From NCBI GenBank assembly GCA_024635875.1, contig JAGXIC010000017.1:1-39816 (forward strand): a stretch of 39,816 bases of DNA. Direction: 5' to 3'. The DNA is from Pricia sp. GTDB taxonomy: Bacteria; Bacteroidota; Bacteroidia; Flavobacteriales; Flavobacteriaceae. Below, piece after piece: positions 8,347 to 32,854 of the stretch. A program made the position numbers and the translations under genes. How positions within the stretch are numbered: the stretch's first letter is position 1; every line of letters begins with the position of its first letter. The notes below the pieces were generated by a model. It made no database searches and had not been told where the DNA came from. It saw only the letters and a program-made list of their open reading frames with translations.

Positions 8347-8416
8347 AATTGCTAATTTTTCACTTATTGTCCCTTTTTCGACTAGCCTGCAAGGTTTAAG
8401 TTCGAGATTCTGCCCG

Positions 8417-8620
8417 AAAAGTCCCCTCCCCAACCCATTCATTCCTCTCACTCCTAAGGTCGCTCGTCGGATGCAAGCGGGGAGGGAGCCACATTTTATA
8501 GGTATTTAAAGCTTCAATTCTTCGACATTCTCCCGTTCAAGGAGAAATCGAGTTCTCCCCCCTCCCTTGTCTCCGAAGAGAGAGGCATGACCGAGAGGAA
8601 GATACAGTTAGAGAAGGGAT
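8417..8620. repeat. GTCCCC-type intergenic element, diverged/extended copy 2
   Basis: AAAAGTCCCCTCCCC at the left end; ...GTTAGAGAAGGGAT at the right end next to the stop of permease 8621-11068; shares GTCGGATGCAAG with the copy at 18497. Confidence 0.6.
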
Positions 8621-11184: not shown

Positions 11185-11200
11185 ATCGATTTTCGTGCCA
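11185..11200 (-). promoter_or_regulatory. Putative sigma-54 promoter (TGGCACG-AAAA-TCGAT) for permease 2 operon
   Basis: Perfect -24 TGGCACG on the minus strand, weaker -12; same distance to palindromes as the tolC promoter. Confidence 0.6.
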
Positions 11201-11263
11201 CATATATAAATAACTATAGTTCAATGTCTTACAAATAAAAAAAGCATTCAAATCTCATCAAAA

Positions 11264-11302
11264 TGTAAAATATTTGGACAGTCGCTGTACAATATATGGA
11301 CA
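11264..11302. promoter_or_regulatory. Tandem 17-bp palindromes (putative enhancer/UAS): TGTAAAATATTTGGACA and TGTACAATATATGGACA
   Basis: Two TGTMMAATAWWTKKACA sites at 11264-11280 and 11286-11302, 22 bp apart, as at 29632-29670. Confidence 0.72.
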
Positions 11303-11394
11303 CTCCCTAACCTTTTGGTGCCGCTTAAGCGCACTAAAACCATCTAAGGTTTCCCTTTTAAAACCTTCGCCGTATCACTTCCGTAAATTTGGTT

Positions 11395-12342
11395 ATGAAT
11401 CGATGCTTCTTTTTGATGCTTTTTCTTCCGAGCTTTATTGTTGCACAAAAAATAGATCACATGGTCTCTTTTCGCGACCTCAACAGCGCTTCCTATTTTA
11501 GGATCAATTATGATAACGACTTTTTTTCCGCGACCGATAAGGACTATACGCAAGGCTACAACTTGGAACTGGTAGCTCCCTTTCTCAAAAAAAGCCCGCT
11601 CAACTTTCTTCCCTTTGCTCCAAAAGGAACTGTTTCCAAATATGGACTTTCTATTGAACATATTGGTTTTACGCCGCAACAGTATCAACTCCCGGACATC
11701 CAATTCGGCGACCGGCCGTTTGCCGCAGCGATCATGCTCAAAAGTTTTCGTGTGGCGACCGATACCGTTAAAAAATCTAGAATAACATCTTCATTGAGCA
11801 TCGGCCTGATTGGTCCCGGTGCCTTTGGCAGGGAAATGCAGGCGGGCATCCATAGGTGGACCGGTAACAAGGTGCCCTTGGGCTGGCGAAATCAGATCAA
11901 AAACGATGTGGTGCTCAACTTTCGGTTGGCCTATGAAAAACGGCTGTGGTCGTATACCGACCTCATGGCCCTTAACGCTGCGGCGAGCGCGCAGTTGGGA
12001 ACCTTGTTCAACCATGTGTCTGCAGGAATCAATACGGCGATAGGTCTTGTAAACCGCCCCTACACTAAAGATAAAAAAGGGTTTCGATTATACCTTTATA
12101 CACAGCCCACGGTAAAACTCATAGGGTATGACGCAACACTTCAAGGCGGTTTGTTCAATAGGGACAGCCCCTATACCATTTCCGTTAATACCGTGAAACG
12201 CCTTACCGGCCAATTTGATTATGGTCTTGTCATCCAGATCCGAACCTTGTACTTCGAATATACCCGTTCCCTTATCACCCGGGAATTTGACTCAGGACAA
12301 GCTTCCGCTTGGGGCGGGATAAACGTAGGATTTAGCTTTTAG
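11395..12342 (+). CDS. LpxR-family (DUF2219) outer-membrane lipid A deacylase-like protein
   Basis: Signal peptide; NDFFSATDKDYTQGYNLELV, FGDRPFAA, GLIGPGAFG motifs; ATG at 11395 preferred over TTG at 11389. Confidence 0.82.
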   Translation: MNRCFFLMLFLPSFIVAQKIDHMVSFRDLNSASYFRINYDNDFFSATDKDYTQGYNLELVAPFLKKSPLNFLPFAPKGTVSKYGLSIEHIGFTPQQYQLPDIQFGDRPFAAAIMLKSFRVATDTVKKSRITSSLSIGLIGPGAFGREMQAGIHRWTGNKVPLGWRNQIKNDVVLNFRLAYEKRLWSYTDLMALNAAASAQLGTLFNHVSAGINTAIGLVNRPYTKDKKGFRLYLYTQPTVKLIGYDATLQGGLFNRDSPYTISVNTVKRLTGQFDYGLVIQIRTLYFEYTRSLITREFDSGQASAWGGINVGFSF

Positions 12343-14928: not shown

Positions 14929-14944
14929 AAGAATTCTTTATTTT

Positions 14945-14970
14945 GTCATTCCCGCGAAGGCGGGAATCTG
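14945..14970. repeat. REP-like palindrome GTCATTCCCGCGAAGGCGGGAATCTG
   Basis: ATTCCC-N8-GGGAAT inverted repeat 17 bp upstream of the permease 3 start. Confidence 0.8.
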
Positions 14971-15046
14971 TTTAATATTATTTAAAAATAATCTTATCCG
15001 CTATTCGTTTTTTTGATTGTTCGCATAATTCGAAAACTTGCCCCAG

Positions 15047-15175
15047 AGTCCCCTCCCCAACCCTCCCCGAGGGGAGGGAGCTCCTGCTTAGAATTAATTT
15101 GAAGTTCCGATTTATTTTCATTTTCAATACTAAAAAGGAGTTCTCCCCCCTACGGGGGGAGCTAGAGGGGGGACT
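15047..15175. repeat. GTCCCC-type intergenic element, copy 3
   Basis: AGTCCCCTCCCC...GAGGGGGGACT outer arms, internal CTCCCCCCTACGGGGGGAG hairpin; overlaps the stop codon of permease 4. Confidence 0.8.
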
Positions 15176-17591
15176 ACTCCGCCCTTAAACTCTTAAGAGG
15201 CTGAATCAACGCCGCACCGACCGATTGATAGCTTATGGTCAGAATGGCAATGCCTAAGGCAATACCGCCCGCTGCCAAGAATATTTCCCAGCCTATGTCG
15301 ATGCGATATGCGAAATCTTCCAACCATCTGCTCATCGCATACCAACCTATGGGTATGGCAAGGGCTATGGAAATCAGTATCAATTTCATAAAATCCAAAG
15401 TCAACAATTGATAAATACTCCTGAACGGCGCGCCAAGCACCAAACGGATGCTTATTTCCTTTTTACGCTGTTCGACCATAAAGGCGGACAGGGCAAAGAG
15501 GCCCAAGCAGGCGACAAAAATGGCGAACAGTGCAAAGCTGTTAAAAATGATGCCCATTCGCTGAACATCGGCATGCATTTGGGTAAACTCTCGGTCTAAA
15601 AAACTATAGTTGATGGATTGGTTCGGCACGTTTTTGTTCCAAATGGATGTGATGGATGCCAGGGCCTCGTTGATATTCCCTTTTTCCAGTTTTACGGATA
15701 CCGCTCCGATATCTTTACCTATGACCAAGGAAAGGGATGAAATATCCTCCTTCAATGATTTAAAGTGAAAGTCTTCGACAACACCGACTACGGTCAAAAT
15801 TTGGCCATTGTTGTCCAATTCTTTTCCTACTGGGTCGGTCAACACAAGTTCTTGCGCCATTTTGGAATTGATGATGATGGAATTGATGGAATCGGAAGCA
15901 AATTCCCTGGAGAAATCGCGACCTTCTTTCAGCTGAATGCCCAGAGTATTGATATAGTCGTAATCGACCCTCCAGATTTGGGCGGGAATACCCCTGCCCT
16001 CGTTGCCTTCATCGGCCCTTCTAAACGTATTACCGTTTCTACTGCCCCCATCGATTGGCAAATAATTTGTGGCGGTAACTTCTTTTACCTGAGGTAATTG
16101 CAAGAGCTGTTCCTTGAACGTGTCGGAACGGTTTCCCAAAACTCCCGTACCTTCGAGAACTACTACCTGCTCTTTATCATAGCCCAATTCCTTTTTTAGG
16201 ATAAAGTCCATTTGGCGGTAAATGATCAAGGTGCCAATAATCAATATCACCGAAGTGGTAAATTGAAAAATGACGAGGCCACTCCGAAGTTTTCCGCTTT
16301 TGCTTCCTACGCTAAGTTTACCTTTCAATACGTTGACAGGCCTAAATGCCGATAAATAGAATGCTGGATACAGTCCGGCAACAACGCCCACCATTACCGA
16401 AGAGACAAAGAGTATCGGCAAAAACCACCAAGCGGACCAAGGCATGACGATGGTTTTGCCCGCAATGGCATTGAACGAAGGCAGTAACCCCCAAGCCAAT
16501 AAAATACCCAGAACAAAGGAGATAAGGCTAAAAACGACGGATTCGGTCAGAAACTGGGCCACGAGATTTCGCTTAAAAGCACCCACGGTCTTTCTTAGGC
16601 CGACTTCCTTGGCCCTGTTGGCCGATTTTGCCGTAGAAAGATTGATAAAATTGATAACGGCTAAGAGCAAGACGAACCCAGCAATGGCGGCAAACAACCA
16701 AACGAACCGGATGTCGCCGTGTTGTAATCCATCCGCCATCCTAATATCAGTCCGCAAATGGATATCGGTCACTGGCTGCAACTTGTATTCAAAAGTTTTC
16801 AGCACCTCTATAAAATCCGGGCCGCGACCCCGTTCCAATTGTGCGGGAATCAAATATTTCTCTACGAGAGATTTCATTTTTTGTTCCAGTTGCAAAACAT
16901 TCGCATTCGGGTCGACCAAGATATAGGTAAAGTAGTTCTGGTTTGTCCAGCTCCCGCTGGGATCCTCAATAGGAAGTATAAAATCGAAGTCGAGATGCGA
17001 GTTCTTGGGGACATCTTTCATCACCCCCGTTACTTTAAACGGTTTTGAGGCGTCATTATCCAAGATAATGGTCTGCCCCAATGCATTTACGTTCTGAAAG
17101 TATTTGTCGGCCTTCGATTTAGAAATGACAATGCTTTGCGGATCGGTCAGCGCCGATTCCGGGTTGCCCTGCTCTAAGCCAATCTCTAGAATATCGAACG
17201 CCTCTTGGTCGGCAAGAATAAACCCATCCTCAAAAGTGTTCTGCGATTTCCCGGTCAAGCGCATTCCCCGCTTGCCGGCACCGAAAATCTCTATAGTATT
17301 TACTTTGCCCGCTTTAATTATTTCCGGGAAGTCGGTCTGGATGGCATCGGCAAAATGCAGTTGAAAATGCGTGCTTTTGAAAAGCTCGCCTTCGAACGTC
17401 CCTTGCATCACCACCCTGAATATTTGATCTTTGTTGGCGTAATGTTTGTCATAGCTGACCTCATTTCGAATGAACAGGGCTATTAAAAGGCAAGCAGTGA
17501 TACCCACGGCAAAACCACCGATTTTGATGGAGGTAAAGAGCTTATCTTTTCTGATGCTTCGCCAGGCGATTTTTAGATGGTTTTTGAACAT
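15174..17591 (-). CDS. ABC transporter permease, double FtsX (permease 4)
   Basis: MFKNHLKIAWRSIRKDKLFTSIKIGG; RAKEVGLRKTVGAF and RKKEISIRLVLGAP; QPLKSLRAE. Confidence 0.92.
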   Translation of the reverse strand: MFKNHLKIAWRSIRKDKLFTSIKIGGFAVGITACLLIALFIRNEVSYDKHYANKDQIFRVVMQGTFEGELFKSTHFQLHFADAIQTDFPEIIKAGKVNTIEIFGAGKRGMRLTGKSQNTFEDGFILADQEAFDILEIGLEQGNPESALTDPQSIVISKSKADKYFQNVNALGQTIILDNDASKPFKVTGVMKDVPKNSHLDFDFILPIEDPSGSWTNQNYFTYILVDPNANVLQLEQKMKSLVEKYLIPAQLERGRGPDFIEVLKTFEYKLQPVTDIHLRTDIRMADGLQHGDIRFVWLFAAIAGFVLLLAVINFINLSTAKSANRAKEVGLRKTVGAFKRNLVAQFLTESVVFSLISFVLGILLAWGLLPSFNAIAGKTIVMPWSAWWFLPILFVSSVMVGVVAGLYPAFYLSAFRPVNVLKGKLSVGSKSGKLRSGLVIFQFTTSVILIIGTLIIYRQMDFILKKELGYDKEQVVVLEGTGVLGNRSDTFKEQLLQLPQVKEVTATNYLPIDGGSRNGNTFRRADEGNEGRGIPAQIWRVDYDYINTLGIQLKEGRDFSREFASDSINSIIINSKMAQELVLTDPVGKELDNNGQILTVVGVVEDFHFKSLKEDISSLSLVIGKDIGAVSVKLEKGNINEALASITSIWNKNVPNQSINYSFLDREFTQMHADVQRMGIIFNSFALFAIFVACLGLFALSAFMVEQRKKEISIRLVLGAPFRSIYQLLTLDFMKLILISIALAIPIGWYAMSRWLEDFAYRIDIGWEIFLAAGGIALGIAILTISYQSVGAALIQPLKSLRAE

Positions 17592-17608
17592 AAATATCTA
17601 TTTTTGTT

Positions 17609-17655
17609 ATTCCCGAACCTCGACTCCGCTAAGAATAAACCCCGGCGGGAATCTG
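17609..17655. repeat. REP-like palindrome with extended loop (ATTCCCG...GGCGGGAATCTG)
   Basis: Same arms as 14945/20979, separated by an extra loop segment. Confidence 0.6.
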
Positions 17656-17674
17656 TTTCTTCTCTCTCTGAAAT

Positions 17675-18433
17675 TTACTGTATTTTACGAACTGTTGCCT
17701 CCCCTATAATTATACCTTTGTTGACCTTGGGATTTCCTTCATAAGTCACCGTGGCTTCTCCAAAAGCGGTAACTTTTAGGTCGTCAGTTACTTTCAGGCG
17801 ATAACTACCTTCTCCGTAGGCAATTATCTTGGCAGACTTACTGTCAACACCCAAGGTGTTGATCTTGGTTTCTCCATAAGCCGTAATCTTATGTCGCCCG
17901 ATGTTACCTTCTTGAATCTCTAGATAACTTGCACCGTAAATCGTGGTCTTTAAATGGCCAAGGTCGACTTTGTCGAGATATACTTGGGACGCACCATAAA
18001 TCGTCAAGTTGAACTTTGTAGCCTCCAACGCGCTTTTACATACAATTTTTTCCTCGCCGCGTAGGGAAAGTTCTTTCAGCTGTTTATAGGTCACGGTCGC
18101 CTTTACCACCGTTCCACTATAAATGGATTTCCGTTGTTCGTACCCGTTTTCGTTGGTTTTTTCACTTTTGGTCACATCCCTGGCACCATCGAGATAGATG
18201 CGAAGCGTCTTACCGTTGACCTCTATATTGATGTTATCTTCTGGTTCTGTACTACTTTCTACGGACACGCTTTCGGAATTATCCTGCTGGAAGACTACCT
18301 GTATGTGTGGACTTACGATGACCTTGTCGAAGGTATCGACATTTGTGGTCTTTATTTGGGCGAAACTGGTTTGGATGGCCGAGAAGGCTAATAGAATTGT
18401 GAAAATGGTTTTTGTATTTATTTTTCTTTTCAT
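17675..18433 (-). CDS. Head-GIN domain protein (DUF2807 family)
   Basis: Signal peptide and repetitive beta-solenoid pattern LTIYGASQVYLDKVDLGHLKTTIYGASYLEIQEGNIGRHKITAYGETKI. Confidence 0.82.
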   Translation of the reverse strand: MKRKINTKTIFTILLAFSAIQTSFAQIKTTNVDTFDKVIVSPHIQVVFQQDNSESVSVESSTEPEDNINIEVNGKTLRIYLDGARDVTKSEKTNENGYEQRKSIYSGTVVKATVTYKQLKELSLRGEEKIVCKSALEATKFNLTIYGASQVYLDKVDLGHLKTTIYGASYLEIQEGNIGRHKITAYGETKINTLGVDSKSAKIIAYGEGSYRLKVTDDLKVTAFGEATVTYEGNPKVNKGIIIGEATVRKIQ

Positions 18434-18496
18434 CGTTGTTGTTTTATGTTTTATCCGGTTAAAATCTTACTGATTTAATTGAACATTCTACCTCCG

Positions 18497-18567
18497 AAAG
18501 TCCCCTCCCCGGCCCATGCATCCCTATCGCTGGTCGGATGCAAGTGGGGAGTTAGAGGGGGGACTTT
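18497..18567. repeat. GTCCCC-type intergenic element, short copy 4
   Basis: AAAGTCCCCTCCCC...GAGGGGGGACTTT; ends directly against the stop of permease 5. Confidence 0.75.
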
Positions 18568-20964
18568 TCACTCTCTCCGTAAACTTTCCACAGGATTCGT
18601 CATAGCCGCTTTTATGGCCTGGTAGCTTATGGTAATCAAGGCGATTGCAACTGCAATGCCTCCGGATAGCACGAACATCCACCACTTCACATCTATACGG
18701 TAGGCGAAATTTTGTAGCCACCGGTCCATGGCGACCCAGGCAATGGGAATGGCAATCAGGGCCGCGATGGCCACCAATCGACCAAAATCCTTGCTCAACA
18801 TTAGCGTTACAGAGGTTATCGATGCTCCCAGTACTTTTCGTACGCCTATTTCCTTTCTGCGCTGTGCGGTCATAAAGATGACGAGCCCTAACAGCCCGAG
18901 GCAGCTGATGATAAAGGCCAGAATGGTAAAAATCACCGACAGTTTTTCCTGTTTTTGCTCGGCCACATATTGCCGGTCAAAATTGTCGTCTAGAAAATGG
19001 ACGTCCACTTGATTCTCGGGGTCGAATTTGTCGAAGGTGTTTTTTAGAAATGCGATACCGGCCTCGGCACGGCCTTTCGCGATCCGTACGTAGAGATTGT
19101 CCCGCTCCCCGTCTTCCGGGGGCAACAGTAGTACCATGGGCTCGATTTTACGCAGCAGCGAAGTGGAATGAAAATCCTTGACCACACCGATTATCTTTCG
19201 GTGGATCGTGCTGTCGTTTTCTGTGTTATATTGGACTCTTTTTCCGATGGCATCCGTATAGCCCAGCGATTTCATCTGGGTCTCGTTGATGAGAACGGCA
19301 TCGGCCGCATCCGTTGACATATCCTTTGAAAAATTCCTTCCCTGTACCAATCCCATTCCGTTGGTCGATATAAAATCAGTATCCACATAAAAGAAACTTG
19401 CCATTTGGGGCGTTGTTTGTATTTTTCCGTCCACCTCAAAATTGAAACCATATTTGCCGATGTAGTCGTTACCAATGGGATTGCCCGCCGTGGCCGCAGC
19501 TTCGATCAATGGACTTTGCAACAATGCTTGTTTTAAGGCCGGTATTTTGCTGCGCAATTCCATATTGTCGATATGGGATATCAGTATCTGTTCTTTCTCG
19601 AAGCCCAGATCTTTTAGGGATACGAACTGCATTTGCCTGTAAATAATGTAGGACCCGCTTATCAGGCAGACCGTGATAACAAACTGTAGTACGACCAGGG
19701 ATTTGCGGAAGACAACGCTCGTGCGCATATTCCCCAACTGGCCTTGCAGCGAGGGAATCATTTTAAACCGGGACAAGAATAGGGCGGGATAACTACCGCT
19801 GAGGATTCCCGTCAAAAAGGTGAAAATGATGATTGACGCCACGGTGTTTGCGATGCCAAAATGCCAAAGGTTCAAATCCTTTTCGGCGAGCCGATTAAAC
19901 ATGGGCAATGCCAATTGGACCAGAAAACAGGCAATCATAGCAGCGATAAAAGTAACGAGCAATGCTTCGAGCATAAACAGGCCTATCAGCTGTTTTTTTC
20001 CCGAGCCCACCACTTTCCGTATCCCGATTTCCTTGAGCCGTAGGGTGGCGCGGGCCGTGGAAAGGTTCATGTAATTGATGACCGCGATCAACAACACGAG
20101 CAGGCCGATCACGATAAACAGGTACACTCGACCGATGCTTCCGTTGCCGCCCATCTCATAGTCCAGATCGGAATGCAAATGGATAGCGGTCAGCGGCTGC
20201 AGTTCCATCCGGAAATCGGTAACATCCATTCGTTGGGCGATGTCTTTTTCAAGGGGAGCCAGCTTATTTTTGAGCGATGTTATATGCGTTCCTTTTTTTA
20301 ATAGGATGTAGGTATACAGGAAGATATCGTCCCAATTTTCACTTTTTAGGTCCTCCTTTTCAAAGGAACGGATTCCGCTGAACTGTAGATGCGAATTCTG
20401 TGGCATATCCCGTATAACACCGGTTACCTTGACCGGATTTTTTCCGCTGCCGAAACCTATAATCCTGTTGATGGCAAGGGACGCATCCCCAAAAATGGTA
20501 CCGGCCAGGCTTTCCGTAACAACAATGCATCCCGGCTCGGCCAAAGCGGTATTCGCATCGCCGTATAAAAAGGGATGGTCGAACAATGTAAAGAAGGAAC
20601 TTTCCGCGTAACAGATATCATCCTGTTTAATGGTTTTTTCGTCGTAGTGCATTACATCGCCGGCCTCGATACCGATACGTACGGCCTCTTCCACTTCGGG
20701 AAAGTCATTTTTTAAAACGGTCGCATAGGGTGGGGAGGTCAGTGCCAGATCAAATTTTCCACCGTCCCAGTTCGCATGCTGCGCGACCCGGTAGATACGT
20801 GGCGCATCGGAAAACGATCGGTCATAGCTGAGTTCATCGGCCACATACAGGGCGATCAACCAAAAGGCCGCCAGCCCGATGGCGATACCTCCGATATTCA
20901 GAAGGCTGTAGCCCTTATGGTGTTTTATGTTGCGCCAGGCGATTTTTAGGTTGTTTTTAAGCAT
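18568..20964 (-). CDS. ABC transporter permease, double FtsX (permease 5)
   Basis: MLKNNLKIAWRNIKHHKGYSLLNIGGIAIG; RLKEIGIRKVVGSG and RRKEIGVRKVLGAS; NPVESLRRE. Confidence 0.92.
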   Translation of the reverse strand: MLKNNLKIAWRNIKHHKGYSLLNIGGIAIGLAAFWLIALYVADELSYDRSFSDAPRIYRVAQHANWDGGKFDLALTSPPYATVLKNDFPEVEEAVRIGIEAGDVMHYDEKTIKQDDICYAESSFFTLFDHPFLYGDANTALAEPGCIVVTESLAGTIFGDASLAINRIIGFGSGKNPVKVTGVIRDMPQNSHLQFSGIRSFEKEDLKSENWDDIFLYTYILLKKGTHITSLKNKLAPLEKDIAQRMDVTDFRMELQPLTAIHLHSDLDYEMGGNGSIGRVYLFIVIGLLVLLIAVINYMNLSTARATLRLKEIGIRKVVGSGKKQLIGLFMLEALLVTFIAAMIACFLVQLALPMFNRLAEKDLNLWHFGIANTVASIIIFTFLTGILSGSYPALFLSRFKMIPSLQGQLGNMRTSVVFRKSLVVLQFVITVCLISGSYIIYRQMQFVSLKDLGFEKEQILISHIDNMELRSKIPALKQALLQSPLIEAAATAGNPIGNDYIGKYGFNFEVDGKIQTTPQMASFFYVDTDFISTNGMGLVQGRNFSKDMSTDAADAVLINETQMKSLGYTDAIGKRVQYNTENDSTIHRKIIGVVKDFHSTSLLRKIEPMVLLLPPEDGERDNLYVRIAKGRAEAGIAFLKNTFDKFDPENQVDVHFLDDNFDRQYVAEQKQEKLSVIFTILAFIISCLGLLGLVIFMTAQRRKEIGVRKVLGASITSVTLMLSKDFGRLVAIAALIAIPIAWVAMDRWLQNFAYRIDVKWWMFVLSGGIAVAIALITISYQAIKAAMTNPVESLRRE

Positions 20965-20978
20965 ATTTAACGTTTTTT

Positions 20979-21004
20979 GTCATTCCCGCTAAGGCGGGAA
21001 TCTC
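20979..21004. repeat. REP-like palindrome GTCATTCCCGCTAAGGCGGGAATCTC
   Basis: Near-identical to 14945-14970; 15 bp upstream of the permease 5 start. Confidence 0.8.
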
Positions 21005-21039
21005 TCCAATTAAATCACCAAGTTTCTTCAACATACCAT

Positions 21040-23463
21040 TTATTCCGTACGCAGGCTTTTTGCAGGATTGATCGTTGCTGCCTTGAACGATTGAAAACTG
21101 ACGGTAAGCAGTGTCAATACCAAGCAGGAAAAACCTGCAAACCCGATGGTCCACCACGCAAAATCAATACGGTAAGCAAACCCGGAAAGCCACCTATCCA
21201 GTAAATACCAAGAAATCGGTGCCGCTATCAGCAGACCGATCAACACCAATCTTACAAAATCTTGAGACAGAAGATATAGTAGTTGCGGCACGCTGGAGCC
21301 CAAGACTTTTCGAATCCCGATTTCCTTCGTTCTACTACTTGCTATAAAGGCGCTTGTAGCAAATAGCCCCATACAGGCCAGAAACACCACGATTACGGAA
21401 AAGAAGTTCAAAAGCTTGAAATGTTCCAAATCGGTTTCAAAAAAGCGGGAAAACTTATCATCCAGAATATTCAACTCCATGGGCGTGACGGGATCGAAGG
21501 AATCATTGACACCTTCGAGTGCCGCAAGAGTCGTTGACCAGTCGGATGTTTTGATTCGCAGGGTATAATAATCGATGGAATGTATCGGATTGTTCCAATT
21601 GGCAATAATCAAGGGTTTGATATCGGTCCGAAAATCCTCTATCTGAAAATCTTCGATCAGACCACTAATCTGGACCTGAAAAGGCTCGGGTAAGGGTTCA
21701 CTGCTTCCTCCAAAATTCACGTTAGGTACTTCTACATACTGGCCAACGGGGCTATCAAGGCCCAAAGCCAAAGCCGCCGCTTTGTTGATAAGTACTTTGG
21801 TGCTGTCGGAAGCTGTGCCCGCGAAATTGGTGCCTTCCAAAAGTTTGATATCGTATGCTTTTAAAAAGTCCTTATCGGCACCCATAAAAAGCATATCCTT
21901 GGATGCATTGCTAGCTTGTCCGTTCCGTTTCACTTTGGCTAGAGGAATATTTTTCCATTCCCCGGGAACCCTCGAGCTCACGCTAATGGCCTCCACTTCC
22001 GGAATGCGTAAAAATTCGCTTTTTATCGCCTGAAACTGTCCCCGTAAAATCCCACTATTGATATCGACTGTCGCCAGCCCTTCCTTTTCAAAGCCCAGTT
22101 CCCTGTTCTTCAAAAATTCCATTTGTCCATTGAACACTAAGGAAGCCGTAAGAAATGTAATGACCGCAACGAACTGAAAGGTTAGCATTACTCTTCTAAA
22201 AGGAAGTTTCGAACCCCCGGAGATCGTATCTTTCAATGAGGACGATACGCCCGTTCGCATAATTGCCCAAAATGGATAGGCTACGGATAAAAGTCCTAAA
22301 ACAAGACCCGTAATTAGTACCAGCAACATTTCCCCGAAAGGTATTTGCGTCAAATTTAATGTGGTGCTGAACCATTTTTGAACCATGGGTTGTAACATCC
22401 ATAGTAATGCGTAAGCCAATGTCATTGAAACGGAAATCAGCAAAAGACTTTCGGACAAAAATTGCCGTAATAAATGGGACTTGCTCGCTCCGACAATTTG
22501 GCGAAGTGCAATTTCCTTGAATCGGTCGATAAAGGCAATGTTCAACAGGCCGGCATAATTGAAACAGGCCACTAGAAGAATTATAATAGCTATCCAGAAA
22601 AATAGGTTGACATAAAGCGCATTGCCTTTGGCCTTGTTCATCTCGCCCTCGACTTCGTTTTCATATAAGTGGATGTCCTGAACAGGTTGTACGGTGAACG
22701 TGCTACTGAACTGTTGATCCGTGGGATAGTTCTCCTTGGTCAGTGCGGTAATCTTTTCTCCCAACTTTCCCATTTCAGTACCCGGAACAAGTTTGAAATA
22801 GGTGATTAATTGGTTATTCGTCCAGTTGGATGCCATAAACCCATCATACCAATCGAAAGCTTCCGAAGCCATTTGATGGCTGATGAACACTATGTTTTCC
22901 AAATGGGAATTTTCTGGAAAATCGTCCAAAACACCGACTACGGAATACTGTTCTTCTCCCATTTTTAATAATTTGCCCAAAGCCGGTTCTTTTCCGAAAT
23001 AAAGTTTTTTGGTCGATTTGGTCAAGATGATACCATTGGGGTTTTCCGACAAGGCGTCAACAGTACCTTCAAGTACCGGAAAATCGAAAACCTTTAAAAA
23101 ATTATCGTCCAAAATGGCCATCTCTTGATGGGTTATGGTCTCTGGATCGTTTCCGACATTGGTACGCCCCATATAAAAAATCTGGGTCTGGTTTTCGATT
23201 TCGTCGAACATTCTTCCTGACTCGATTCCCACTTTTGGTGGCGTCTGGGCCATTTCATGCACCGTACCGTTTTCATCGGTAGTCTTCTGTAGCAGCCGAT
23301 AAACCCCTTCTTGATCTTTATCAAAAGAAGTTTCCTTTAAGACATAAGCGTTTAACAGAAAAAAACAAAAGAAGCCCAGCGTTAGCCCAAGTATATTGAC
23401 TATCGCAAACGATGGATGACCTTTTAAATATCTGAACGCAACTTTGAAGTGGTTTTTTAACAT
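21040..23463 (-). CDS. ABC transporter permease, double FtsX (permease 6)
   Basis: MLKNHFKVAFRYLKGHPSFAIVNILGLTLG; RFKEIALRQIVGAS and RTKEIGIRKVLGSS; NPAKSLRTE. Confidence 0.92.
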   Translation of the reverse strand: MLKNHFKVAFRYLKGHPSFAIVNILGLTLGFFCFFLLNAYVLKETSFDKDQEGVYRLLQKTTDENGTVHEMAQTPPKVGIESGRMFDEIENQTQIFYMGRTNVGNDPETITHQEMAILDDNFLKVFDFPVLEGTVDALSENPNGIILTKSTKKLYFGKEPALGKLLKMGEEQYSVVGVLDDFPENSHLENIVFISHQMASEAFDWYDGFMASNWTNNQLITYFKLVPGTEMGKLGEKITALTKENYPTDQQFSSTFTVQPVQDIHLYENEVEGEMNKAKGNALYVNLFFWIAIIILLVACFNYAGLLNIAFIDRFKEIALRQIVGASKSHLLRQFLSESLLLISVSMTLAYALLWMLQPMVQKWFSTTLNLTQIPFGEMLLVLITGLVLGLLSVAYPFWAIMRTGVSSSLKDTISGGSKLPFRRVMLTFQFVAVITFLTASLVFNGQMEFLKNRELGFEKEGLATVDINSGILRGQFQAIKSEFLRIPEVEAISVSSRVPGEWKNIPLAKVKRNGQASNASKDMLFMGADKDFLKAYDIKLLEGTNFAGTASDSTKVLINKAAALALGLDSPVGQYVEVPNVNFGGSSEPLPEPFQVQISGLIEDFQIEDFRTDIKPLIIANWNNPIHSIDYYTLRIKTSDWSTTLAALEGVNDSFDPVTPMELNILDDKFSRFFETDLEHFKLLNFFSVIVVFLACMGLFATSAFIASSRTKEIGIRKVLGSSVPQLLYLLSQDFVRLVLIGLLIAAPISWYLLDRWLSGFAYRIDFAWWTIGFAGFSCLVLTLLTVSFQSFKAATINPAKSLRTE

Positions 23464-23488
23464 TTTTATTTCTTTTTTGATTGATGAT

Positions 23489-25888
23489 TTACTCCGTACG
23501 CAAACTTTTTACCGGATTCGCATTCGCCGCCTTGATGGCCTGAAAGCTTACCGTTAAAATCGTTATTGCCAATGCCCCGACAACGGCTAGTGCAAAAATC
23601 CACCAGGATAGTATGACCCGATACGGATAATCCTGTAACCAGCCGTTCATCACGAAATACGAAATGGGAATCGCAATAAAGCAAGAGATAACGACCAATT
23701 TTAAAAAGTCTTTAGACAGCATATTCCACACATTGAAAACAGAGGCCCCCAGAACCTTGCGCACACCAATTTCCTTGGTGCGTTGTTCCGCGACAAAAGA
23801 GGTGAGCCCGAACAGGCCGAGACAGCTGATCAGAATGGCCAGGGCCGTGAAAATACCGGATAACGTACCGATACGTTCTTCGGCCGCGAATTTTTCGCCG
23901 TATTCTTCATCCACAAAATCATATTAAAAGGGAAGATCTGGAAAGTGTGCCTTGAACACCCTTTCAATTACAGCCAAGTTTTGGTTTGCGCTTTGATTCG
24001 GATTCAACCGCAGATTATAAAAACTCGCGTTTCCGCTTTTATCAAAAACGTAGATCCCTTGTTTTACTGGTTCGTAAGGAGATTGGGTAATCATATCTTC
24101 CACCACACCGATGATCTTTAAAGGGTCATTGGGATTTTCTTCGTCATCATCTTTTAAGAACTTGCCGATAGGGTCTGTAAGCCCCATATATTTTAAAGCC
24201 GTTTGGTTGATTAGCACGGCATTGGAATCTGTTGCAAATTTCCTTGAAAAATCCCTCCCCTGCACTATTTTCAAGTTCAGCGATTGGGCATATTCGGGGG
24301 TAACCTCTGTCCAGGCCAAATCTTCTTGAAAGCCTTCGGGCTTGCCCTCCCAAATAAAACCACTACGGTTGGACCATATTTGCGTAGTAGGACTGCTGGA
24401 AGCGGACATTTCAACAACAGCGCCGGAGGCCAAAAACTCGTTGCGCATAAGATCATACTTTCCTTCGAAATCTTGGCTCATGGTCGGAATTTGTACCAAA
24501 CCCTCTTTATCATATCCGATCGGACGGTCTTTGGCATGGTTGATCTGCTGCACTACGATAACCGTTCCGATAATAAAGGCGACCGAGACCGTAAATTGGA
24601 CGACTACCAAAATTTTTCTTGGCAACCCTGCATATTTCCCGCCTCTAAAAGTTCCTTTCAATACGTCAACAGGCCGAAATGAAGATAGGTAAAGGGCGGG
24701 ATAGCTACCGGCCAACAACGAAGTAAACACGATAAAAACGAGTGAAATCAGCCAAAAATTTAAATTTCCCCAGGGAAAATCGATTTCTTTTCTAGACAGT
24801 TCGTTGAACCCGTTCAATGAAATCAGCACAATCACCATGGCCAATAAAAAGGCAAATGCCACTACCAAAAAAGATTCGCTCAAAAATTGATTGATCAGTT
24901 GACCTCTTTGTGAGCCTATGGTTTTTCTGATGCCAACTTCTTTGGCTCTTTTTTCGGATCGTGCGGTACTGAGATTCATGAAGTTGATACAGGCCAACAA
25001 CAGCACAAAGGCTCCAATAATCGCAAATAACCAAACATATTTTACCCTTCCTCCGGCCTGTTTTCCATTTTCAAAATTGCCGTATAAATACCATTCGTCC
25101 ATCGGAAAAAGAAACAATTGTGGGTTGAACTCGACCGAATTTTCGTTCAAGGTCTTCTTAACATCTTTGATGGTAGTGGTAACCCTATCCATTTTAGTAT
25201 TATCTGCAATTTGCACGAACATCTGAAATGAGTTATTGCCCCATTGATCAAAAGCATTTTTTATCCACTCCTGTGTTGTGATGTATTTTTCCCAGGGCAT
25301 TAGAAATTGGGCATCGTTGAAGGAGTTATTTATAGGAATGTCTTCATACATCGCGCTTACGATCATATCGTATTGGCTGTTGACCTTTATTACCTTGCCA
25401 ATCGGTGCTTCATCACCGAACAGGGCATCGGCGGCCGATTCTGAAAGCATGATGGAGTTGATTTCCCTTAGGCCATCCTTTTCGCCTTTGAGAATTTTTA
25501 GATCGAACATTTCAGGGCCCTCCCGCTGCATAAAATGGCCCGTTCTTGTAAGGCTCTTTTCCTTATAGTTAAGATATTGGGAATTATTCCATGAAGCCAT
25601 CACGAGATGTTTGAAGTTGTCAGCATAATCGTCCCGAAAGGCTTTTTCCAAAGGTCTGGGGATGGCCGGGCCTGTATCTGTTTGGCCATTAAACGTCTGC
25701 GATTGAAAGACCTGGGCTATTCGGTCCCGGTTTTCGAAGTAGTCGTTGTACGTCAGTTCGTCTTCGATCCAAAGTCCGATGATCAGGGTCACCGCCATGC
25801 CCAGGGCCAGCCCGCCTATATTGATAATCGAGTAGCCTTTGCTCCGCTTTAAATTGCGCCAAGCTATTTTTAAATAATTTTTGAACAT
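23489..25888 (-). pseudogene. ABC transporter permease, double FtsX (permease 7), interrupted by in-frame TAA at 23924-23926
   Basis: ORFs 23924-25888 and 23489-23914 are in the same frame; read-through gives HFPDLPF*YDFVDEEYGEKFAAEERIG, collinear with permease 3 GQPFSYRFMEESFNTTYEAEQRLS. Confidence 0.85.
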
Positions 25889-25930: not shown

Positions 25931-26626
25931 TTACACCCGCACTTCCAGAGCCCGATTATGGCTCTCGGTAACAATTTGCCCGTCGAACAGATTGACCACC
26001 CGGTGGGCGAAATGCGAATCGTGGTCCGAGTGCGTCACCATCACAATGGTGGTACCTTCTTGGTTCAGTTCGGTGAGCAGGTTCATGACTTCAAGTCCGT
26101 TTTTGGAGTCTAGGTTGCCTGTGGGCTCATCCGCGAGAATCAGTTTGGGGTTGGTGACCACCGCCCGCGCGATGGCCACACGTTGTTGCTGTCCGCCTGA
26201 AAGCTGATGCGGGAAATGTTTTTCACGATGGGCGATTTTCATGCGCTCCAGCACCTTCATGACCTTTTCGCGGCGGCTGGTCTTGTTTTCCTTGAGATAA
26301 ATCAAAGGCAGCTCCACATTTTCGAAAACGGTCAATTCGTCAATTAGGTTAAAACTTTGGAAGACGAAGCCCAAGTTTCCCTTTCGTAGCTGGGTACGCT
26401 GACTTTCTTTAAGTCCCGCTACTTCATTGCCGGCGAAATTGTAGCTGCCTTCGGTGGGATTGTCGAGCATACCGATGATGTTCAGCAGCGTGGATTTCCC
26501 GCAGCCCGAAGGCCCCATAATGCCTACGAATTCGCCGTCCTCCACTTTAAGGTTGACCTTATTTAAAGCTAGGGTTTCGACTTCTTCTGTTTTAAAGCTC
26601 TTTTTTAGGTTTTGGATCTGTATCAT
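25931..26626 (-). CDS. ABC transporter ATP-binding protein (MacB/LolD family)
   Basis: [36 protein letters not shown]. Confidence 0.94.
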
Positions 26627-26709: not shown

Positions 26710-27960
26710 TTATTTTAACACAATCTTCTCCGCCTCCCCAAACGAATCATAATTACTTGTAATCACTTTCTCCCCGGCCTGCAAGCCTTCCAAAACTTCG
26801 TAATAGCGGGAGTTCTGCTTTCCTATTCGGATGTTACGTTTCAAGGCTTGCTCGCCATCCGGGCCGACCACGAAAATCCATTGGCCGCCGGTACTTTGAA
26901 AGAAGCTGCCTTTAGGAAGCAACAGCGCGTCGCTTGATTCGCCCAATTGCAATTTGATGTTATAGCTCTGTCCGGTTCTTATGGTCAGAGGCCTACTATC
27001 AGTGAAAACCAGATCGACCTTAAATTTGCCATTTCGGACTTCGGGATATACCTTGCGCAAACGTAATGGATATTCTTCGCCGTTTCTATCCAGCACGGCA
27101 CTGAGATCACGAACGACCCGGTCGATATAATGTTCGTCGATGGTGGCCTCAATTTTATAATCGGTCAGTACGTTGATCTGTCCGATACGTTCGCCCTGTG
27201 CGATACTTTGTCCAATTTCGGCATCCAAGAAACCCAATTGACCATCGGCGGGGGCGCGGACATTCAGGTGGTCTAATCTTTGGTAGACCATGCCCAGGGT
27301 TTTCTGCATTCGGGCCAAATCTGCATCAAGACCTTTCAATGATGTCTCTCGCAGCTCATTATCATTTTCAGTCTGTACCTTTACGATTTCGAATTGTTTT
27401 TTGGATAGTTCATAGTTTTCTTTGGATAATTGATATTCCTCCTTCGAAATCAGCTCTTCATCATACAAGGCCTGATTTTGCTCAAAGTTCCGTTTCAGCC
27501 TTTGCAAATCGGTACTAGCGGTTGCCAAGGATCTACGACCATCTACTTGACGGGAATCAAAAGTCAGTTTCGTCGAACGCAGGTCATTTTGCTTTAAGGC
27601 CAAATTACTTTCACTGGTCATAATCTGTTCATAGAGGTTAATATTTTCCAGTTTTAATATAATATCCCCCTTTTTGACCATCGCCCCTTCTTCAATTAGC
27701 TTTTCCTCGACGCGACCGCCCTCATAGGCATCCATATAAATGGTGGCAATAGGCGCAACGTTTCCGTTGATGGTAATGTAATCGTCAAACTTGCCCTGTG
27801 TGACCTCAGCAACCGAAAGCTTGTCTTTTTCGGTTCGGAATGTCGAGACCGAACTGGCAAAAATCAGTTGGTAGCCCGCAAAAATTATGAGTAGGCCCAA
27901 GGCGATATAGCCGTAATGTTTCGGGCGGAGTCCTTTTTTCTTTTCTAGTTTTATATCCAT
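26710..27960 (-). CDS. HlyD/MacA-family periplasmic adaptor
   Basis: N-terminal TM anchor, lipoyl/barrel-sandwich motifs, long coiled coil, C-terminal LQAGEKVITSNYDSFGEAEKIVLK. Confidence 0.9.
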   Translation of the reverse strand: MDIKLEKKKGLRPKHYGYIALGLLIIFAGYQLIFASSVSTFRTEKDKLSVAEVTQGKFDDYITINGNVAPIATIYMDAYEGGRVEEKLIEEGAMVKKGDIILKLENINLYEQIMTSESNLALKQNDLRSTKLTFDSRQVDGRRSLATASTDLQRLKRNFEQNQALYDEELISKEEYQLSKENYELSKKQFEIVKVQTENDNELRETSLKGLDADLARMQKTLGMVYQRLDHLNVRAPADGQLGFLDAEIGQSIAQGERIGQINVLTDYKIEATIDEHYIDRVVRDLSAVLDRNGEEYPLRLRKVYPEVRNGKFKVDLVFTDSRPLTIRTGQSYNIKLQLGESSDALLLPKGSFFQSTGGQWIFVVGPDGEQALKRNIRIGKQNSRYYEVLEGLQAGEKVITSNYDSFGEAEKIVLK

Positions 27961-28181: not shown

Positions 28182-29528
28182 TCATTCTATATCAAAAACA
28201 GGTAACCCCCTATAAAAATTCAACGTACTCTTATTGATTTCAGAACGTAGACGCACCTGAAGGTTTTCGTTTTGGGCACTGGCAAAAAGGTTTTTGGCCT
28301 GAAAAAGTTCCAAGGCATTGATCAATCCCTTTTCGTAGCGTTTTTGCGCAATAGTAAAGGCCAAGTTCTGTGCGTCTACGTTTTGGTCGCTCTGTTCGTA
28401 TTCCACTAACAAAGATTCGTATTCCTGAACCAACTGCTGTATCGTCTGAAAAATGACCTGTTCTTGCACTTCAAGATTGTTTTCTGCGCGAAGACGTTCG
28501 ATTTTCTGCTGTTTGACGCGGGATTGTGCCGACCAAGCATTACTGATGGGTACATTTAAACTCAATCCGATAAACTGAAAGGTATTATCCCGAAATTGAT
28601 CTCGAAATGGTACGGTCGAACCTAGTGAGTCTCGCGTGGTTTCAAAGTAACCGGTTCCAATTCCGGCAAACAATGATACTGATGGAAATAGTCTCCCTCG
28701 CTCTACATCCAACTGTTTTTTTGCTGCTTTTGCCCTAAGCTGTTGTGCCTTGAGGATAGGCATAAATGCTTGCGATTCTTTATAAACCGAATCGGTCTGT
28801 ATCTTCAAGGAATCGTTTGCCCCAAGATTTTCGACTATTTCGGAATGAATGGAAATATCGGCCGCATCCTCTAAATTCATTTCTTGTATCAATCCTAATT
28901 TGGCAGTCGCCAATTGGTTCTTGCTTTGGGTCAGGTTTAAACGATCGGTCAATAAAAGTGATTCCGCTTCGTAAAGATCCGCACCGGCTTTCAGGCCCAC
29001 TTCAATCTGTTTTTCCACCAGGTCATAATTAGACTGTGATACGGCCAATTGCTCTTTGGAAATCGCCACCAGACCTTCTGCAAATCGAATATCATAAAAC
29101 GCCTGCATCACGCGAAAGGCCAAAAGGTATTTTTGCTGCAAGGTCTCTTCTTGGGTCGCTTTATATAAAAACTTTGAGGTCTTGATGGCATTAATTTTCT
29201 GAAAGCCTTGAAACAGGTCCATCGAAGATTCCAATGAATACCGATTCGAAAAAAAATCGGTCGTGACCACGTCGTTCGTAAAAGGATCGGTACTTCGCCC
29301 AAAGTTGACGACATAATCGGTAGAACCGTTTACTCGGGGCAATAAATCACGTATGGACTGACGATAGGTTTCCCGGCCCGATTGCCTCGTGTATTCGAAA
29401 TCGTTCAATTGAAGGTTATTTTGCAGGGCATAGGCCACACATTCGTCCAGCGTCCATTTATCCTGTGCCTGAAGTCGCATGCATAGCGCGGTTAGAAGTA
29501 GGATAGCTATTTTAAATCTTTGATTCAT
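28182..29528 (-). CDS. TolC-family outer-membrane efflux protein
   Basis: Signal peptide MNQRFKIAILLLTALCMRLQAQ; WTLDECVAYALQNNLQLN; coiled-coil repeats; start reassigned to MNQRF. Confidence 0.92.
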   Translation of the reverse strand: MNQRFKIAILLLTALCMRLQAQDKWTLDECVAYALQNNLQLNDFEYTRQSGRETYRQSIRDLLPRVNGSTDYVVNFGRSTDPFTNDVVTTDFFSNRYSLESSMDLFQGFQKINAIKTSKFLYKATQEETLQQKYLLAFRVMQAFYDIRFAEGLVAISKEQLAVSQSNYDLVEKQIEVGLKAGADLYEAESLLLTDRLNLTQSKNQLATAKLGLIQEMNLEDAADISIHSEIVENLGANDSLKIQTDSVYKESQAFMPILKAQQLRAKAAKKQLDVERGRLFPSVSLFAGIGTGYFETTRDSLGSTVPFRDQFRDNTFQFIGLSLNVPISNAWSAQSRVKQQKIERLRAENNLEVQEQVIFQTIQQLVQEYESLLVEYEQSDQNVDAQNLAFTIAQKRYEKGLINALELFQAKNLFASAQNENLQVRLRSEINKSTLNFYRGLPVFDIE

Positions 29529-29552
29529 ATTATATTGATATGCCAAAAGATA

Positions 29553-29568
29553 TGCGATCCGCGTGCCA
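29553..29568 (-). promoter_or_regulatory. Putative sigma-54 promoter (TGGCACG-CGGA-TCGCA) for the tolC operon
   Basis: Differs from TGGCACG-N4-TTGCA at a single conserved base; 25 nt upstream of the tolC ATG. Confidence 0.78.
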
Positions 29569-29631
29569 AGAATGTAAATTCTTGATTACTAGTTTATTAC
29601 TAATAATTTCAAGGAGGAAAGATAATCAAAG

Positions 29632-29670
29632 TGTAAAATAAATGTACATGTATTGTCAAATATTTTTACA
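29632..29670. promoter_or_regulatory. Tandem 17-bp palindromes (putative NtrC-family enhancer/UAS): TGTAAAATAAATGTACA and TGTCAAATATTTTTACA
   Basis: Sites at 29632-29648 and 29654-29670, 22 bp apart, 64 bp from the -24 edge. Confidence 0.75.
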
Positions 29671-29752
29671 GTTTTTGAAAACAAATGGGATTGAAGTTGT
29701 ATTTTTAGAACGTCATTACGAGCGTAGCTTGGCAACCCATAAACTTTAATAG

Positions 29753-31114
29753 ATGCTGGATGCAAAAATCTTAGTGGTCGACGACAACAAAAGTGTACTT
29801 AGCGCTTTGGAGATCCTCTTGCAGTTCGAGTACAATACGGTAAAGACCATTTCAAATCCGAATCAGATATCTTCCTTTCCCGATTTGGATATGTATGATA
29901 TCGTGATGCTGGACATGAATTTTACGGCCGGGGTAAACACCGGTAACGAGGGCATCTTTTGGCTTCGGGAAATCCGTAAAAAAGCGCCCCAGATCTCGGT
30001 CATCATGATGACGGCCTACGGTGCCATAGATTTGGCCGTAAAAGCCCTAAAAGAGGGAGCAACGGATTTTGTGCTGAAACCCTGGAACAATGATAAACTG
30101 CTGGCCACTGTAAAATCGGCCTATGAACTACGGAAATCACAGAAAGAAGTTTCCCAACTTAGAGAAAAGGAGAGCAACCTTAAGCAGGTCATCAATCAGA
30201 GCAGCAACCACATCATCGGTAATTCTAAACCGCTTAACACGGTTTTGTCCCTTACCGCTAAAGTGGCCAAAACGGAAGTCAATGTTCTGGTAACGGGCGA
30301 AAACGGAACCGGAAAGGAATTGATTGCCCGAGAACTTCATAAACTATCCGGGCGTAGCAACGAGGTGTTTATTTCCGTGGATATGGGTTCCATTTCCGAA
30401 AATCTGTTCGAAAGCGAACTTTTCGGCCACACCAAAGGTTCGTTTACCGACGCCAAGGAAGACCGTGCGGGAAAATTCGAAGCGGCCAACGGCGGCACGT
30501 TGTTCTTGGATGAAATCGGGAACCTTTCCCTTCAGGCCCAGGCGAAGTTATTGTCGGCCATTCAGAATAAAACCATCGTCCGAGTCGGATCTAACAAACC
30601 GATTCCCGTAGATATCCGTTTGATATGTGCCACCAACGAAAATTTGGATAAAATGGTTAAGGACGGACTTTTCCGCGAAGACCTATTATACCGAATCAAC
30701 ACCATTCGCATCGAAGTGCCACCGCTGCGTGAAAGAGAAGGCGATATTCTGGTTTTGGCCGATTTCTATCTCAAAAAATTTGCTGTCAAATACGCCAAAC
30801 AGGGTTTACGCATCAACCAATCTGCCCAAGAAAAATTGATGGTCTATCCTTGGCCCGGAAACATCCGTGAACTTTTACATACCTTAGAACGCGCCGTAAT
30901 ACTCTCCGAAGGAAACGTGTTGAATCCTGAAGATTTTCTGTTGGAGGCAAAACCGACGACTTCCGTAACAACCGGTCCGGAAACCTTGGAAGAAATGGAA
31001 CTGCTGATGATTACCAAAGCCTTGAACCAAAACGACGGTAATTACAGCGCGGCCGCCGAGCAACTGGGGATTTCGAGGCAGACACTTTATAACAAATTGA
31101 AAAAGAAAAAGTAA
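29753..31114 (+). CDS. NtrC-family sigma-54-dependent response regulator
   Basis: Receiver domain (VVDDN, VMLDMNF, KPW); AAA+ GENGTGKE, GSFTDA loop, FLDEIG; C-terminal Fis-type HTH NYSAAAEQLGISRQTLYNKLKKKK. Confidence 0.95.
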   Translation: MLDAKILVVDDNKSVLSALEILLQFEYNTVKTISNPNQISSFPDLDMYDIVMLDMNFTAGVNTGNEGIFWLREIRKKAPQISVIMMTAYGAIDLAVKALKEGATDFVLKPWNNDKLLATVKSAYELRKSQKEVSQLREKESNLKQVINQSSNHIIGNSKPLNTVLSLTAKVAKTEVNVLVTGENGTGKELIARELHKLSGRSNEVFISVDMGSISENLFESELFGHTKGSFTDAKEDRAGKFEAANGGTLFLDEIGNLSLQAQAKLLSAIQNKTIVRVGSNKPIPVDIRLICATNENLDKMVKDGLFREDLLYRINTIRIEVPPLREREGDILVLADFYLKKFAVKYAKQGLRINQSAQEKLMVYPWPGNIRELLHTLERAVILSEGNVLNPEDFLLEAKPTTSVTTGPETLEEMELLMITKALNQNDGNYSAAAEQLGISRQTLYNKLKKKK

Positions 31115-31127
31115 GCTATAAAATCCT

Positions 31128-31451
31128 ATGAAATTCAAATATATCTATTTGATACTAGCAGTTTTAGGAATTTGTTATACTTGGTATTACAATATTCAAT
31201 GGTTTCAAACAGTAGAAAATCCCACATTTACAAATTTTTTGAATGATGCACAGGCTAATTTTGCGGGCAAATCTCTTGGAGCGGATCTATCAGTGGTCGT
31301 AATAACTTTCTTTGTATTTATGATTTCAGAAAGCCTAAGACTTAAAATCAAATTTTGGTGGCTTTTAATTCCCCTGACGTTTCTAATTGCAATTGCATTT
31401 ACGTTTCCGTTGTTTTTATATATGCGGGAAAACCGATTGGAAAAGATATAG
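31128..31451 (+). CDS. Small membrane protein, DUF2834-like
   Basis: Three hydrophobic segments; YLILAVLGICYTWYYNIQWF N-terminus typical of DUF2834. Confidence 0.7.
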   Translation: MKFKYIYLILAVLGICYTWYYNIQWFQTVENPTFTNFLNDAQANFAGKSLGADLSVVVITFFVFMISESLRLKIKFWWLLIPLTFLIAIAFTFPLFLYMRENRLEKI

Positions 31452-31486: not shown

Positions 31487-32854
31487 ATGGTAAGCAGACA
31501 CATATATTGGCAATTACTATTCCGGATACTCCTAATCTCCGCAGCCGCCCTTGGAACAGGCTTTTTCTTTTTTGATGGGCAATATGTGCTATCCGTATTT
31601 GTATTCGGCTTCCTCGTGCTACAGACCGTTTTTCTTATCCGCTATGTCAATCAGACCAACCGAAAAATCGCCTATTTTTTCGATGCGATAAAAAATGAGG
31701 ATTTCACCCTGCGGTTTCCCGAAAAACTGAGTGTAAAGTCCTTAGAGGAACTGAACCACAGCCTGAACATGCTGAATGCGATGATACAGGACATCCACCT
31801 AAAAAAACAGGCACAGGAGCAGTATTATCAAGAGATTCTGAAACAGGCAGATATCGGCATCCTGACCATTAATCCAAAGGGACACATTCTGTATGCCAAC
31901 CCTACCGTCGAAAAACTGTTGAATTACCGGCCGCTGAACCACATCAAACAATTGAACCAAGTCGACGAAAAACTGTACGGACTATTTGAAAATTTACAAG
32001 CTTTTGAAAGCAAGACCATTCAACTGACCAACGAACGTGAGAAGATACAGTTGGCGCTAAAATCTACGGTAATCAACCTAGAAAAACAATCGTTATTGCT
32101 GGTGGTCGTACAGGATATTCGCAGGGAACTGGATGAAAAAGAAACGGATTCCTATGTGAAACTCATCCGCGTTCTGACCCATGAGATCATGAATACGATT
32201 ACCCCGATCACTTCGATTTCGGAATCCGTTTTAAAATATTTTAAGAAGGACGGGCAGTTGTTAACCACCGACGAATTCGCGGAACACCATATGAAAAGTA
32301 CGGTCAAAGGACTGGAAATCATTAAAGAGCAAGGGAAAGACCTCATGGGATTCGTGCAGTCGTACCGTACGTTTCTCAGTGTACCCGAACCCGATAAAGC
32401 GCTCATACCGGCCCAAAATCTACTAGAAAAAATCAAACTTTTAATGGGTGGGGATAGCGGTCAGGAACACATCGATATCGAGGTCATTGTCGACCCAGAA
32501 GATTTACAGCTTTTTATCGACGAAAAGCAGATTACGCAGGTACTTTTAAACCTTGGGAAAAACGCGCAGCAGTCTTTGATAAATCAAGAAAGTATTACAC
32601 CATCGGATAAAAAGGGACAAATCAAGTTTTTAGCGGGTATCGATGATAAAAATAAAAAAATCATCAAGGTCTGGGACAACGTCCCCGGAATTCCCCAAGA
32701 ACATCTCGATGAAATTTTCGTGCCTTTCTTCACCACTAAAAATACCGGAACTGGTATCGGCCTTAGCCTATCGAAACAGATCATGCGATTGCACGGGGGC
32801 AGTATTCGGGCAGCATCGAAAGAGAATACGGTTTTTACGCTGACCTTTGATTGA
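31487..32854 (+). CDS. NtrB-like sensor histidine kinase (HAMP/PAS, HisKA, HATPase)
   Basis: RVLTHEIMNTITPI H-box, NLGKNAQQSL N-box, FFTTKNTGTGIGLSLSKQIM. Confidence 0.93.
   Translation: MVSRHIYWQLLFRILLISAAALGTGFFFFDGQYVLSVFVFGFLVLQTVFLIRYVNQTNRKIAYFFDAIKNEDFTLRFPEKLSVKSLEELNHSLNMLNAMIQDIHLKKQAQEQYYQEILKQADIGILTINPKGHILYANPTVEKLLNYRPLNHIKQLNQVDEKLYGLFENLQAFESKTIQLTNEREKIQLALKSTVINLEKQSLLLVVVQDIRRELDEKETDSYVKLIRVLTHEIMNTITPITSISESVLKYFKKDGQLLTTDEFAEHHMKSTVKGLEIIKEQGKDLMGFVQSYRTFLSVPEPDKALIPAQNLLEKIKLLMGGDSGQEHIDIEVIVDPEDLQLFIDEKQITQVLLNLGKNAQQSLINQESITPSDKKGQIKFLAGIDDKNKKIIKVWDNVPGIPQEHLDEIFVPFFTTKNTGTGIGLSLSKQIMRLHGGSIRAASKENTVFTLTFD

Follow-up and report, generated by a model that had tools for sequence, protein, structure and literature searches.

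What controls the export operon headed by tolC in this Pricia sp. genome, and does that control reach beyond the operon itself? The question is raised by the intergenic region between tolC and a divergent regulator gene on contig JAGXIC010000017.1, in a window of 39,816 nucleotides, by which we mean the whole stretch of DNA analysed. A sequence-only reading had placed here a sigma-54 promoter for tolC and two palindromes for the NtrC-type regulator encoded next to it. Judging from sequence comparisons, we consider it very likely that the region forms an enhancer-dependent NtrC-type/sigma-54 switch, in which the adjacent regulator acts on the palindromes, and that this switch runs an envelope-export regulon. 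The earlier reading of the tolC module is supported; it had missed a second module in the window, the dispersed regulon, an IHF-like site and the regulator's own sigma-A promoter.

Results

The export operon lies on the minus strand and comprises tolC, encoding an outer membrane efflux protein (28182–29528), a gene for an hlyD-type membrane fusion protein (26710–27960) and a DarD/MacB/LolD-like ABC ATPase gene (25931–26626), the first two assigned by domain search and the ATPase by domain and family matches. These are followed by five duplicated MacB_PCD/FtsX permease genes and a DUF2807 gene (12496–25888, minus strand). The permeases are about 800 amino acids long, and their best NCBIfam matches, nearly full length, are ADOP (TIGR03434) and DarB of darobactin export (NF038008). 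They fall far below the curated cut-offs of both families; the full-length copies score about 203–347 bits against an ADOP cut-off of 622.3, and we therefore call them ADOP-like and not ADOP. One permease (23489–25888, minus strand) is split by an in-frame TAA (...DLPF*YDFVDEE...) in a frame that is otherwise open; the gene may have decayed to a pseudogene or carry a genuine nonsense mutation, or the draft assembly may be wrong here.

On the plus strand, the divergent gene (29753–31114) was borne out as an NtrC-type response regulator, with receiver, sigma-54 activator AAA+ and Fis-type helix-turn-helix domains (PF00072, PF00158 and PF02954, all above cut-off). It is among five strong sigma-54 activator matches in the genome, which encodes one RpoN (G000:C96; Sigma54_CBD match, 2.9e-56). 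The sigma-54 contact loop reads GSFTDA in this protein and G[SA]FTDA among its orthologues, as against GAFTGA, and related activators near sigma-54-like sites likewise have GAFTDA. Domain searches further identified a small DUF2834 membrane protein (31128–31451, plus strand) and, beyond it, a histidine kinase with PAS and HATPase domains and the H-box LTHEIMN (31487–32854, plus strand). By inspection, the kinase has two N-terminal membrane segments joined by a very short loop.

A scan of the window for TGGCACG-N4-TTGCW returned only one match with fewer than two mismatches: TGGCACGCGGATCGCA on the minus strand (29568 to 29553), the -24/-12 core TGGCACG-CGGA-TCGCA of tolC. It has a single mismatch and lies 25 nt upstream of the tolC ATG at 29528, with transcription predicted to start at about 29542. 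Farther upstream are the two 17-bp palindromes, TGTAAAATAAATGTACA (29632–29648) and TGTCAAATATTTTTACA (29654–29670), both exact and 22 bp apart from start to start. The nearer one is separated from the -24 edge by 63 bp, and the palindrome centres fall approximately 98 and 120 bp upstream of the predicted tolC start. Position, distance to the ATG, mismatch count and palindrome period thus all agree with the sequence-only reading. In the draft genome (3,964,525 bases, about 80% complete), perfect matches to TGT-N11-ACA-N5-TGT-N11-ACA number just two, at 29632–29670 and 11264–11302, both in the window.

We compared the orthologous intergenic regions of 80 named regulator orthologues from Pricia, Maribacter, Zobellia, Pseudozobellia, Arenibacter, Muricauda and other genera, 77 of which had enough upstream sequence; the loci span many genera but are related, so they do not represent 77 independent events. 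Tandem TGT-N11-ACA palindromes are present in all 77, perfect at the twelve specified bases in 72 and with one mismatch in five. Their loss in relatives that keep the operon, which the earlier reading had named as a refutation, was thus not seen at any of these loci. The -24 element is also present throughout, at 63 bp in 62 loci, 62 bp in 11 and 64 bp in four. Beyond these close orthologues, regulators with 62–63% identity adjoin the same palindrome family, one of the two with a weakened second palindrome. At 52% identity, the two palindromes are 23 bp apart, TGGCAC lies at about 65 bp and the half-sites have become TGTTYC..GAAACA. The layout appears, from these sequences, to be older than the present recognition sequence.

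Within the core, TGGCAY-N5-TNG has invariant GG and G and a fixed spacing in 77/77 orthologous loci. The -12 element is lax: T-n-G is found in every locus, the next C (TnGC) in only 18 of the 77, and the second T of TTGCA, the one deviating -12 position in the window, varies across the clade. The groES promoters of the same genomes also keep the G of -12 and not always the C, and because they are equally lax, the laxity seems to be a trait of the clade, with no fault in the tolC site. A sigma-54 promoter of groES has been mapped in Flavobacterium psychrophilum (PMC9723704). We also considered the change of the contact loop from GAFTGA to G[SA]FTDA as a cause of the lax -12; this is unsupported, as the groES promoters are just as lax and other GAFTDA activators adjoin sites with T[TC]G[AC]. 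For promoter prediction, the -12 box in this clade should be searched as T-n-G and not as TTGC.

Two observations concern the surroundings of these promoters. The groES upstream regions examined (L180, L182–L191) retain TGGCAY and the -12 G, often without the C. Upstream of the promoter, they also have in common a conserved TGACAAGCTGGCATTTT...TGTCAG block, perhaps the site of another activator. At the predicted tolC start, there is an extra TGGCA repeat (29540–29545, minus strand), about 23 bp downstream of the -24 element; its GGCA is found in 64 of 77 tolC-type loci and is not conserved in unlinked modules. We rejected this repeat as an overlapping sigma-54 promoter, since in the window there is no G at its -12, and also as a conserved hairpin, since inspection showed the pairing to be broken in many relatives.

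The AT-rich spacer between palindromes and core varies among orthologous loci, except for a block around YTGA...CAR...TTR conserved at a fixed distance from -24. In the window, this block contains AATCAAGAATTTA (29575–29587, minus strand), which matches all nine specified positions of the E. coli IHF consensus WATCAANNNNTTR. In one register, at least seven of these nine positions match in 48 of the 66 dereplicated modules of tolC type and in 10 of the 22 others; no other register exceeds 8 and 6 modules, and shuffled sequences give means of 1.5 and 0.3. The tolC-type counts are partly post hoc, since it was these very sequences that drew attention to the register. We predict that 29575–29587 is a probable DNA-bending site. 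The genome encodes two members of the HU/IHF family (PF00216).

Scanning the window with the palindrome consensus revealed the second module, consisting of the tandem palindrome TGTAAAATATTTGGACA-GTCGC-TGTACAATATATGGACA (11264–11302) and the sigma-54-like core TGGCACGAAAATCGAT (11185–11200, minus strand). It has the same 22-bp period and 63-bp spacing as the tolC module, with GA in place of the canonical GC at -12 and a poor IHF match (4/9). The module points at the distal part of the same cluster, where the predicted target is a duplicated permease gene (8621–11068, minus strand), followed by a further one (5965–8451, minus strand) placed by gene order and family match. Next comes a second ABC ATPase gene (5100–5762, minus strand), whose orthologues in genomes G003 and G054 have a module of their own upstream. 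Divergent to the permease gene is an LpxR-type lipid A deacylase gene (11389–12342, plus strand), whose start lies 87 bp beyond the second tandem palindrome; it might share this enhancer.

To find further copies, the bare tandem pattern proved unspecific: with one mismatch allowed, it occurs at seven places in the draft genome, compared with two for the reversed pattern. It was therefore dropped in favor of the full module (palindromes, 63 bp, TGGCAY-N5-T-N-G), which we sought in 100 related genomes, allowing up to two mismatches. Matches with at most one mismatch were confined to nine genomes, all with a regulator orthologue, and the reversed control of the full module matched nowhere in the 100; two-mismatch matches in G005, G027 and G041 look random. 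The genes that follow the modules are almost all tolC, duplicated permeases (many of them far from the regulator) or an ABC ATPase. Two modules differ, standing before a DUF2268/GldB-like gene and one open reading frame without identification (L167 and L169), and no open reading frame was picked by the script at one site of tolC type in G003. In G021, we scored 19 regions lying before dispersed duplicated permeases: ten reach at least 16/19 for the module, and in the other nine it is not recognizable. None of five regions upstream of ordinary FtsX permeases of about 400 amino acids reaches that score. Shuffled regions reached 16 once in 540. Such module copies before scattered pump genes lead us to predict a regulon in marine Flavobacteriaceae.

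On its other side, the enhancer faces the regulator's own gene. A sigma-A -7 box, TATTTTTA (29700–29707, plus strand), of the form TAnnTTTR, lies 29 bp past the palindromes, and the -7 consensus of F. psychrophilum sigma-A is TAnnTTTG (PMC9723704). Among the orthologous loci, a TAnnTTT[AG] box is found in 75 of 77, at 28 bp from the far palindrome in 73 and at 29 bp in two; none of the 16 modules that do not adjoin the regulator has it. No -33 element is clearly conserved at this promoter in the orthologous loci. Activator-dependent promoters likewise have no clear -33 element. Because the palindromes keep a fixed distance from the sigma-A promoter, the arrangement suggests that the regulator controls its own expression. 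Between this promoter and the ATG is a repeat-like stretch, GTCATTACGAGCGTAGCTTGGCAAC (29710–29737, plus strand), with a similar stretch in locus L008; it was rejected as a multicopy element, as the draft genome contains one copy within three mismatches.

Discussion

These observations can be assembled into a mechanism. The nearby kinase would phosphorylate, and so activate, the NtrC-type regulator, which would occupy both palindromes in dimeric form, at a distance of about two helical turns. The spacer may be bent at the WATCAANNNNTTR-like site by a member of the HU/IHF family, allowing the AAA+ ring of the regulator to reach sigma-54 RNA polymerase at -24/-12, and the tolC-hlyD-ATPase-permease operon would then be transcribed from the sigma-54 promoter. 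The module at 11185–11302 would provide the distal permeases with an internal promoter. Further copies in related genomes would bring duplicated permeases at unlinked sites, as well as an ABC ATPase, under control of this regulator, which probably also regulates its own expression at its sigma-A promoter. The inducing signal, we infer, probably comes from envelope-active compounds.

Alternatively, the palindromes might be bound by another factor, such as a repressor or a one-component regulator, with the sigma-54 promoter driven by a different enhancer-binding protein. Palindromes alone do not name what binds them, and about four further strong sigma-54 activators are encoded in the genome, but we regard this as improbable: the site adjoins an orthologue of the 29753–31114 regulator at every one of the 77 loci, each genome that has a full module with one mismatch or none also has such an orthologue, and the half-sites change along with the divergence of the regulator. 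The regular placement of the -7 box, 28–29 bp past the palindromes in 75/77 loci, would also fit palindromes that serve mainly the divergent sigma-A promoter, the sigma-54-like core being incidental. This is very improbable, however, given a -24/-12 core at 62–64 bp in all 77 loci and 16 of 16 remote modules that retain palindromes and core without the sigma-A box. That the resemblance arose by chance in AT-rich intergenic sequence, as the reversed-control matches of the bare one-mismatch pattern might suggest, is hardly credible because the tandem palindromes and the -24 element persist in 77/77 loci, and the full module has no reversed-control match in 100 genomes.

If the NtrC-type/sigma-54 switch operates as proposed, a single tandem enhancer may have a double function, looping to sigma-54 promoters of the tripartite exporter and of the unlinked duplicated permeases and, at the same time, serving as a position-fixed site for the regulator's own sigma-A promoter, and the orphan permeases may be alternative subunits that share the ATPase, HlyD and TolC of the operon in one interchangeable pump system. 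We put this combined proposal forward tentatively and with more doubt than confidence.

Enhancer-dependent sigma-54 promoters are textbook biology, and the features of NtrC/sigma-54/IHF systems used for comparison here are general textbook knowledge. Similar to systems such as glnA/glnH, psp, nif and ato, the module has tandem palindromes about 100 bp upstream, an AAA+ activator with a Fis-type helix-turn-helix, a -24/-12 core and an IHF-consensus site in between. Unlike them, it has a nearly invariant enhancer-core spacing (62–64 bp), a -12 element reduced to T-n-G, a regulator with G[SA]FTDA in place of GAFTGA and export permeases as targets.

Mapped sigma-54 (SM4) promoters, groES included, are available from the same bacterial class in F. 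psychrophilum, where the targets selected in the main text are chaperones, gliding and exported proteins, with no tolC/permease operon in that selection (PMC9723704). A 2025 survey predicts sigma-54 control of FtsX-like/COG0577 permeases in Bacteroidia and calls this prediction the first evidence of it (PMC12316311). The promoter class and the kind of target gene are the same as ours; in the passages considered here, promoters are scored by a sequence matrix and gene groups by enrichment, whereas here an activator, a site, a geometry and dispersed genes are assigned (PMC12316311). A description of the regulon was not found in the open-licence literature, where absence is weak evidence. What appears to be new, on the sequence evidence, is the assignment of activator, site and regulon, together with the scatter of the permease targets, the constancy of the geometry and the use of the enhancer on both sides. 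For the Flavobacteriia, where few sigma-54 regulons have been defined, this provides sigma-54 regulation with a concrete activator, a predicted binding site and a gene set.

In Bce modules, intramembrane-sensing kinases work with FtsX-type permeases (PMC10314905). By inspection, the kinase described here resembles that of BceRS-BceAB modules in having two membrane segments with hardly any loop between them, alongside permeases of the FtsX type; the likeness would be one of functional analogy only. The activator here is sigma-54 dependent and belongs to a Gram-negative TolC/HlyD system. That the permeases themselves might feed a signal to the kinase is a guess from this analogy.

The predicted co-regulation would tie duplicated permeases that are dispersed and have no assigned partner to one ATPase/HlyD/TolC set, a connection that can be tested for an otherwise unexplained family. 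In G021, a stretch of about 67 kb (C2:754170–821642) is almost wholly a tandem array of approximately 27 duplicated permease genes, all on the same strand, that stops close to the tolC/regulator locus; many others are dispersed through the genome.
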